A stretch of DNA of 57,391 nucleotides from assembly GCA_027622655.1 (NCBI GenBank), contig JAQBYI010000020.1, forward strand, positions 1 to 57,391, written 5' to 3'. Shown piece after piece: positions 4,896 through 7,842 of the stretch. The notes beneath the pieces were generated by a model, which was given only the letters and a program-made list of their open reading frames with translations, was not told the DNA's origin and ran no database searches. This DNA comes from Gemmatimonadota bacterium. GTDB lineage: Bacteria; Gemmatimonadota; Gemmatimonadetes; Gemmatimonadales; Gemmatimonadaceae. The position numbers were made by a program, and so were the translations under genes. The number at the start of each line of letters is the position of its first letter. Position 1 is the stretch's first letter.

Positions 4896-5858
4896 CTAGC
4901 GACCGCCGCGCCCGTAGATCAGTTCGCGCACATGCCGTGCGGCTTCACCGAGACGAACGCCGGGCCGGGCGACGAGCGCCGTGTCGAACACGACGACGCG
5001 GCCTGCCCGAACCGCCGGAATCACCCGCCATGCTGCGGACTCTGCAATGCGCTCCGCTCCGGTTGGCCCGACGATGATGAGGTCCGGATTGCGGCGCACC
5101 ACCTCCTCGAGCGAAACCTGCGGCGACGGCGCGGAGATGTCGCCGAAGACGTTGGACCCGCCCGCCAGTTCGATCAACTCTCCGACAAAACTTCCACTTC
5201 CCGCTGTGAACAGAGGCGGGTCACCCATTCTCCAGAAAACGCGCGGCGCGATTAGCGGCCGGGGCATCTGCCGAACAGCCTCTACCGACGCGAGGACCGA
5301 GTCGGCAACGACGATACCTCCCGAGTCGCCGGTGACACGCGCGTACGCATTGGCGAACCGCCGCAGGTCGTCAATCCGGTCGGTCCGAATCGAGAGAGTG
5401 CGAACGCCGGCAGCATGCAGCGCAGCGACCGCCCGTTGATTTCCTACCGTTGCGTAAAGAATGACGAGGTCGGGGCGCGCGCCGACGACGGCCTCGACGT
5501 TCGGTCCGATACCGTTGCCGAGATCAGGGACCGCAGCCGCTTCGGCAGGATAGAGATCCCAATGAGTGCGTCCCACGACGCGCGGTCCGGCCCCGGCGGC
5601 GAAGAGAAACTCCGTGGTTACCGGATTGAGCGACACTATACGCCGGGCGATGCCAACCGCGACCGTATCGCCGAGATCGTCGACGAACGCCGATGGCGCA
5701 CCGCCAGACTCAGTTTCTACCGAGCTCTGCCCATTCGAGTCAGCGCAGGCCGCACCCATGATGGCCACACCAGCAGCGGCAATCAGGCGCATCGCCACGC
5801 GGTCGAGCGTCCGGTGGGGCGAGGCCGACGAACTCAGGATTCGGTAGAGCGAAGACAC
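4896..5858 (-). CDS. btuF: cobalamin-binding periplasmic lipoprotein (BtuF-type)
   Basis: A 320-residue helical-backbone substrate-binding protein (TroA/BtuF fold). Typical sequences are RIVSLNPVTTEFLFAAGA, VVGRTHWDLYP, PDLVILYA and the NPDLIIV segment of the C-terminal lobe. The N-terminus is a signal sequence ending MGAAC with cysteine 38, so it is probably a lipoprotein anchored in the envelope. I place the start at the GTG at 5858 because AAGGAG lies 8 bases upstream; an internal ATG at 5792 would give a shorter, more classical signal peptide but has no good ribosome site. It is the first gene of the operon behind the cobalamin riboswitch, and its ribosome site lies in a hairpin (5861-5889). 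Confidence 0.88.
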   Translation of the reverse strand: MSSLYRILSSSASPHRTLDRVAMRLIAAAGVAIMGAACADSNGQSSVETESGGAPSAFVDDLGDTVAVGIARRIVSLNPVTTEFLFAAGAGPRVVGRTHWDLYPAEAAAVPDLGNGIGPNVEAVVGARPDLVILYATVGNQRAVAALHAAGVRTLSIRTDRIDDLRRFANAYARVTGDSGGIVVADSVLASVEAVRQMPRPLIAPRVFWRMGDPPLFTAGSGSFVGELIELAGGSNVFGDISAPSPQVSLEEVVRRNPDLIIVGPTGAERIAESAAWRVIPAVRAGRVVVFDTALVARPGVRLGEAARHVRELIYGRGGR

Positions 5859-6134: not shown

Positions 6135-7271
6135 CTAGTCGGCTGGAGGCGCAAGGCGCGCCGCGCGCTGCGCGCCGCGCGCTGCAGCTTCACCCGACCG
6201 CGAGTTGCACGGGCCAACCCGCCTGCCCCGGCGAAACGACAGCCAGAGCGCGATAGCCATCACAAACGCAGCGACCGTCGCAATCAGGCGAGGCGCACCC
6301 GGGCCCAAAGCTCCCCGCGGCGGAACCTGGACTCTCACCGTTGCGCCAATCGCGACACCGTGTGCGACGAAGCGGCGAAACGCACGACCCGAGATCAGCT
6401 CCGGCGTTTGCTCCGCGATTCCAATGCCGGTCACGGTCGCGACAGAGTCTTCGACGAGCACTTCGACTACGTCGGCAGCGTCCGCGAACTGGAACGTCAG
6501 CTCGCCGTTCGTTGGAGCGAGCCGATACAGCACCGAAATGCGCTTCGTGCCCGGCGCGATGGGCGCCAACAGCTCCACGCGTCCGTCAATGATCAGGATG
6601 GCGCTTGCCGACACGTCACTCTCGCCAGCACGAATGTCGTACGCACCCGACGGGAGAGCCGCCTGAAATGTCGGAGCGTTGCCGCCACCCACGACACGCG
6701 TAATCTCGCCGCCGTTCACGAGGATGAAGACCTCGGCGACTGTCCTCGCCGCCGACGTGTCAGCTGCAGATACAATGACGTGGCGGCTTGCAACGCCGAT
6801 GGGCACGTCCCGGCTCGTCGTGTCGTAGACGGTGAGTTCCGCATCGTCGGCCGGCTGCGCACCATTCCCGACACGGCCGACGCGCTTCGAGAAATAGGCG
6901 ATCCCTCCATACAACGTCGACACAAAGTAGACGGCCTCGGGATCTCCGCCCGGCCGGTACCTGAACCGGAAATCACCTCGGGGTCCCGAACGCGTCGAGT
7001 CGACGGCGCCAGCCGAGTCTGTTCCCACGCGATGAAGCGTCACCCATGTTCCGACAAGAGGCTTCGTTGAGCCGCCTCCGGCCAGCACAACGCGGCCGGT
7101 CGCTGTCGCCACACGGACGCCGGCGCTCGTGTCCCGGGTAGTGGCAGCGGGGCCATCCTGCGCCGCCAGCGTGCCTGCCAGCGTGCCTGCCAGAGTGCCT
7201 ACCAGAGTGCCTGCCAGAGTGCCTGCCAGAGTGCCTGCCAGAGTGCCGAGCGCCATCGCCAACCGGCGCAC
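6135..7271 (-). CDS. exported, C-terminally membrane-anchored protein of unknown function with repeat-built signal peptide
   Basis: About 378 residues. The signal peptide is made of seven GTLA/GTLV tetrads ending in AAQ, encoded by 12-bp tandem repeats. It is followed by a region like a carboxypeptidase regulatory (transthyretin-type) domain: TGRVVLAGGGS, GTWVTLHRVG, GDFRFRY. More beta-rich sequence follows, then one C-terminal membrane helix (LIATVAAFVMAIALWLSF) and a basic tail. I do not recognise the family. The start is uncertain: GTG at 7271 gives a basic n-region (RR), ATG at 7256 is the alternative; longer versions would overlap the upstream nuclease gene. It lies between that gene and the B12 riboswitch, but nothing shows a B12 role. 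Confidence 0.65.
   Translation of the reverse strand: MRRLAMALGTLAGTLAGTLAGTLVGTLAGTLAGTLAAQDGPAATTRDTSAGVRVATATGRVVLAGGGSTKPLVGTWVTLHRVGTDSAGAVDSTRSGPRGDFRFRYRPGGDPEAVYFVSTLYGGIAYFSKRVGRVGNGAQPADDAELTVYDTTSRDVPIGVASRHVIVSAADTSAARTVAEVFILVNGGEITRVVGGGNAPTFQAALPSGAYDIRAGESDVSASAILIIDGRVELLAPIAPGTKRISVLYRLAPTNGELTFQFADAADVVEVLVEDSVATVTGIGIAEQTPELISGRAFRRFVAHGVAIGATVRVQVPPRGALGPGAPRLIATVAAFVMAIALWLSFRRGRRVGPCNSRSGEAAARGAQRAARLAPPAD
7164..7247 (-). repeat. seven tandem 12-bp repeats inside a signal peptide
   Basis: Seven copies of GGCACTCTGGCA (coding strand) run head to tail with few changes. Each unit encodes Gly-Thr-Leu-Ala, with one Gly-Thr-Leu-Val. The unit length is a multiple of three, so slippage would change the length of the hydrophobic core without breaking the frame. 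Confidence 0.95.
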
Positions 7272-7305: not shown

Positions 7306-7842
7306 TCAAAGCGTGAACTTGCCGAAGTCTTCCGGCCGCAGTTGCTCCAAATGGCGTCGCAGGTTTTCGGCGTAGGACGATGACTCCGCGATCGCAGCAT
7401 CACTGCGCTGCTCGACCGATTCGGGCGTGCCGCTATCGTCCTCGGCGGAAAGCTGCTCATACTCGTTCAGCAGCTCCTCAGAGGCGAAAAGCGGAGCGCC
7501 GAGCCTGATGGCGATGGCGATGGCGTCGGACGGACGTGCGTCTACCACGAACGGGTTCCCACCGCGCGTGATGTGCATCTCAGCGTGGTACGTATGCTCA
7601 ACGACGCGGCTGACGACTATCCGGGTCAACGTGCCGTCGAGTACGGCCAGCAGAGAGCGGACCAGGTCGTGCGTCATCGGGCGTTCACGCGGAACACCGT
7701 GCAGATGCGCCGCAATAGACTCAGCCTCCGGCCGGCCGATCCAAATGGGCAGCACCCGCGTGCCACCGCGCTCCTGCAGCACGACCACAAAAGTCTTCTG
7801 CTGCCCGTCATGGCCGAGCTTCGACACCACGACTTCTACCAC
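7306..7842 (-). CDS. bifunctional nuclease family protein (DUF151)
   Basis: A 178-residue DUF151/BFN protein. The domain runs from residue 1 to about 130 with typical sequences LPIWIGRPEAESIAAHL, RPMTHDLV and the C-terminal DARPSDAIAIAIRLGAPLF. The tail ends in ENLRRHLEQLRPEDFGKF, resembling the UVR-like coiled segment seen after some members. Plant and mycobacterial relatives are reported to have DNase and RNase activity; many bacterial copies have no assigned role. Start GTG with GGGGAGG just upstream. The stop is 40 bases after the metK stop direction-wise, so it may be co-transcribed with metK. Confidence 0.88.
   Translation of the reverse strand: MVEVVVSKLGHDGQQKTFVVVLQERGGTRVLPIWIGRPEAESIAAHLHGVPRERPMTHDLVRSLLAVLDGTLTRIVVSRVVEHTYHAEMHITRGGNPFVVDARPSDAIAIAIRLGAPLFASEELLNEYEQLSAEDDSGTPESVEQRSDAAIAESSSYAENLRRHLEQLRPEDFGKFTL

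Follow-up and report, generated by a model that had tools for sequence, protein, structure and literature searches.

A seven-unit 12-bp minisatellite in a predicted signal peptide from a Gemmatimonadaceae genome rich in short tandem arrays

When a tandem repeat makes up the core of a signal peptide, does its copy number adjust export, or is the repeat merely tolerated there? The question is raised by a 57,391-nucleotide stretch of a Gemmatimonadota genome (contig JAQBYI010000020.1; hereafter the window), where a 12-bp minisatellite of seven units (7164..7247, minus strand) encodes (GTLA)3 GTLV (GTLA)3 by unit-by-unit reading and translation. TRF reports the array at 7165-7247 with a period of 12 bp, 6.9 copies, 95% matches and a score of 145, the highest of any array in the window. 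On the minus strand the units are, in order, three copies of GGCACTCTGGCA, then GGCACTCTGGTA, GGCACTCTGGCA, GGCACGCTGGCA and GGCACGCTGGCG; two of the three kinds of difference among them are silent, and the third exchanges A for V, which keeps hydrophobicity. The original prediction, GTLA repeated seven times, was right about seven in-frame 12-bp units, but their content is six GTLA and one GTLV. Its reading frame through the array is confirmed, and with it the point that gain or loss of units preserves that frame.

The array has the hallmarks of a coding minisatellite: head-to-tail units longer than 10 bp, in frame, and beyond chance according to TRF and simulation (670 kb of Markov-simulated DNA of the same composition yielded no array scoring ≥80). 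A dispersed repeat family or mobile element was considered and rejected. Searched for in 119 genomes, the motif occurs elsewhere only in G035, as a sporadic intergenic array whose unit is similar (2–3 mismatches), and the other arrays of the window's own genome are built from different units.

Translated from upstream of the array, the protein would begin with the signal peptide MRRLAMAL-(GTLA)7-A (7161..7271, minus strand), as judged from the translation and from where orthologues have their signal peptide, with both its precise start and its cleavage site predicted. Inspection and alignment recover the features of a type I Sec signal peptide, namely an MRR... n-region, 34 uncharged residues and a terminal ...LAA before Q, at a position conserved in orthologues. 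In-frame starts 5' of the array are GTG 7301, GTG 7271, TTG 7262 and ATG 7256. GTG 7271 gives a complete signal peptide of 37 aa, followed by QDG, and GTG 7301 one of 47 aa; a start at ATG 7256 would lose the positive n-region and its charge ahead of the core. The gene likely starts at GTG 7271 (MRRLAMAL...) or GTG 7301. Because the array segment sits where orthologues carry their signal peptide, translation from upstream of it is well supported, in agreement with the original prediction of a signal-peptide core. Judged by its sequence, the array is the hydrophobic core of a cleavable Sec signal peptide ending in ...TLAA, with cleavage predicted before Q.

The gene itself (6135..7271, minus strand), delimited from its open frame, orthologues and a predicted model, would encode a beta-rich periplasmic part behind the signal peptide and a C-terminal transmembrane helix (LIATVAAFVMAIALWLSF; 6234..6287, minus strand; from sequence and orthologue alignment), and its product reads as a membrane-anchored periplasmic protein. 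Orthologues are present in 76 of 80 relatives, mostly at 29-42% identity, and share this architecture, usually with an extra C-terminal tail (consensus ALDxxF...LKxxL). The window's member lacks the tail found in most orthologues (6135-6234, minus strand), and no other frame has it; in the orthologue from G008 (L003), the frame continues into btuF-like sequence. Searches of the window protein against Pfam and NCBIfam gave no match, including none above the gathering score to CarboxypepD_reg (PF13620), a domain matched weakly by 17 of 28 family members (best E 7e-5), and a PDB sequence search gave no significant relative. A low-confidence model (mean pLDDT 65, 3 sequences) shows beta sandwiches and a membrane helix, for which Foldseek returned only partial matches (TM ~0.3), to OST1 and M1 aminopeptidases.

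Upstream of the array gene lie metK and, directly adjacent, a bifunctional nuclease gene (BFN_dom, PF02577, E 7e-35; 7306..7842, minus strand); locus L156 has the same gene order. The MetK protein shares 83% identity with its counterpart in 'Gemmatimonadetes bacterium isolate RH-18aug17-373', in keeping with an origin of the window in Gemmatimonadota. After the array gene comes a cobalamin riboswitch (RF00174; 5986-6098, minus strand; Rfam, 75.8 bits), in front of a btuF-like gene (4896-5858) and its ABC transporter genes. The periplasmic binding protein, FecCD permease and ABC ATPase encoded there most likely serve B12 uptake, as judged from sequence.

Leaving out copies cut by a contig end, relatives carry a conventional signal peptide at the array position, mostly ending in an A-Q motif, and GTLA repeats are found in none of them. 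The original prediction had named, as one refutation, identical repeat number in all related strains together with no repeats in homologues, and the absence of the GTLA repeat from orthologues supplies half of it. One orthologue, from another genus (L050, genome G035), does have a repeat in the same signal peptide, a 15-bp unit in 3.3 copies encoding (AAPLV)n; its sequence marks it as an independent event, unrelated to the GTLA array. Separately, an orthologue at a contig start (L041; G031:C47:1-120) has a 57-bp two-copy repeat in its N-terminal region, ALFLTAALRTSARNSA.

Among 64 signal peptides compared, the window's has the longest uncharged core, at 34 residues (next 25, median 16), and 61 of the 63 orthologues exceed it in hydrophobicity. 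By scale calculation, on which the hydrophobicity argument is built, the best 12-residue Kyte-Doolittle mean is 1.69 for any number of units between 2 and 10, and the 19-residue insertion energy sum is flat from four units up (published biological hydrophobicity scale). The number of units is thus expected to alter core length and not peak hydrophobicity. This speaks against the earlier suggestion that repeat number tunes export or targeting, as only length would shift.

Tandem arrays are abundant in this genome. In a sample of 951 kb of stretches (30% of the genome), TRF found 101 arrays scoring ≥60 and 57 scoring ≥80, most commonly with a period of 12. Arrays of 9–15 bp scoring ≥80 number 45 in these 951 kb vs. 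7 in 700 kb sampled from nine congeners (p ~1e-5), a density about 5 times higher. Half of the 56 arrays scoring ≥70 in the first 670 kb are intergenic, where intergenic DNA makes up about 7% of the sequence; one intergenic array of a 12-bp unit in 7.8 copies (L032:1731-1823; C11:21230-21322) begins within a few bases of the stop codon that ends an ssb-like gene (C terminus DDDLPF, read by eye). Among coding or N-terminal arrays, 58 of 66 have a period divisible by 3, vs. 16 of 35 intergenic ones (Fisher p ~1e-5), the split coming from a simple codon-usage gene-calling script with some N-terminal assignments doubtful. Since coding arrays are nearly all multiples of 3, purifying selection alone explains the 12-bp period, and together with the genome-wide spread of arrays this points to a tolerated repeat rather than a tuned switch. 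The proposal of a contingency locus loses ground here, as an in-frame period needs only purifying selection and the genome is full of arrays, many of them non-coding.

Nine of 67 contig ends have an array within 150 bp (L085, L094, L121, L126, L127, L130, L131, L135 and L149), vs. 1.9% of interior windows (p ~5e-6), which suggests that long or variable arrays break the assembly at contig ends. Some arrays may accordingly vary in the population, although the array at 7164-7247 is itself outside that evidence.

Within the 30% of the genome that was sampled, at least five other signal peptides, picked by eye, bear arrays. They include a cupin protein with (LLGSA) x4.3 (L132:3712-3776, contig C20), a sulfatase lipoprotein with (TLRT)n in an arginine-rich n-region and a small lipoprotein with (LLA)n before LTIGAC (L082:1191-1277 and 5228-5271, contig C1), a DUF4390-like exported protein in which a 12-bp array of 4.9 copies places AGAQ x5 at the signal-peptidase site (L137:3619-3677, contig C25), and a cyclophilin with (VACL)2.5. 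All 14 DUF4390-like orthologues, some of them 65-68% identical, have an unrepeated signal peptide with one site, and the LLGSA repeat is absent from cupin relatives with a visible signal peptide, so at least these two arrays are recent and private to this genome. Signal peptides hold 4 of 15 coding arrays scoring ≥100 vs. about 3% expected (p ~0.001), and 6 of 59 scoring ≥60 (p ~0.01), where the expectation takes signal peptides and first membrane helices to hold an estimated 3.2% of coding residues, a share uncorrected for composition. The enrichment could reflect selection for arrays and not mere tolerance; alanine/leucine-rich sequence may itself be prone to repeats.

We consider it probable that the array is a minisatellite of recent origin, private to the species, which an ordinary and permissive Sec signal peptide tolerates, and we infer both the near-neutrality of the array and its origin by slippage. 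A short piece of a normal signal peptide would have been duplicated, and replication slippage would then have extended it to seven units of 12 bp, while selection purged frame-breaking changes. The remaining variation would be tolerated as long as the n-region stayed positive, the core hydrophobic enough and the cleavage site intact. Each GTLA unit gained or lost would change the core by four residues at a predicted unchanged peak hydrophobicity, and export is predicted to be buffered against repeat number. One observation that counts against tolerance is that the orthologue in another genus, L050, has repeats in the same signal peptide too. This orthologue favors instead a reading in which signal peptides of this lineage are hot spots where arrays are advantageous, extending a weak core or multiplying cleavage sites as in AGAQ x5, with the array adaptive and fixed rather than switching. 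The excess of arrays found in signal peptides would fit, as would a weak core offset by length. Such a fixed adaptive array is nevertheless improbable in our judgment, since the enrichment is moderate and still contains compositional bias, short cores suffice in orthologues, and 700 kb of congeners contain just one weak candidate signal-peptide array.

An in-frame contingency locus, in which frequent slippage produces mixed signal-peptide lengths and length sets the export level or decides between cleavage and retention, we regard as unlikely. Neighboring units are nearly pure and the period is in frame, several signal peptides of the genome have arrays, and arrays lie at contig ends as expected of variable or long repeats; human CNDP1 shows that secretion can be set by signal-peptide repeat number (PMC13116943). 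Against this stand the constant calculated peak hydrophobicity over 2–10 units, the variant units that interrupt the array (lower purity means less mutation; PMC3899988), a protein with no hint of a surface-antigen role, and the expectation of in-frame coding arrays without selection for switching. The lineage-wide version, in which signal peptides repeatedly arise from population-variable in-frame arrays whose length spectrum would serve as a graded, never-off export contingency, is a long shot. We give almost no credence to the array being an untranslated DNA or RNA regulatory element with the start codon downstream. Similar 12-bp arrays do occur in intergenic DNA of this genome, but orthologues have a signal peptide at the same point, and no ATG, GTG or TTG is in frame between 7256 and about 7112, where the next start lies past the signal peptide and would delete it. 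The region folds no better than its shuffles (z +0.96), on which ground an RNA element was rejected; a search for promoters and terminators gave no match, and the only Rfam match in the whole window is the cobalamin riboswitch.

Known systems resemble the window's array in part. Neisseria opa (P.II) genes switch their frame through CTCTT repeats within the stretch that codes for the signal sequence (PMC13183285, PMC3899988); both are tandem repeats within DNA encoding a bacterial signal peptide and changed by slippage, which in our case is presumed. The Opa unit, however, is 5 bp and turns the frame on or off, whereas the window's unit is 12 bp, keeps the frame constant and is not known to vary in number. 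Human CNDP1 (carnosinase) likewise has an in-frame repeat in its signal peptide, a polymorphic (CTG)n leucine repeat that alters secretion (PMC13116943), but that gene is eukaryotic, its repeat pure leucine and its polymorphism proven, while the window's unit is weakly hydrophobic and added units bring no rise in calculated peak. Coding minisatellites and VNTRs, in which in-frame units are favored, are common in secreted and surface proteins, and less pure arrays among them mutate less (PMC3899988). The window's array shares their period of more than 10 bp and their in-frame units in coding DNA; unlike the usual examples, found in mature extracellular domains, it lies in the part that is presumably cut off. 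In the open-access literature we found no bacterial example of a signal peptide core that holds an in-frame minisatellite.

The array is a clear example of the birth of a repeat in a tolerant coding segment. It illustrates how little a signal peptide needs, as here the core is a 28-residue tetrapeptide repeat, apparently born by slippage. Should its copy number prove variable, the array would count as an in-frame contingency locus with graded effect, a kind hardly described in bacteria. The main interest lies in the recurrence of arrays across several of this genome's signal peptides, a natural experiment in varying the length of the core and of the n-region and in multiplying cleavage sites.
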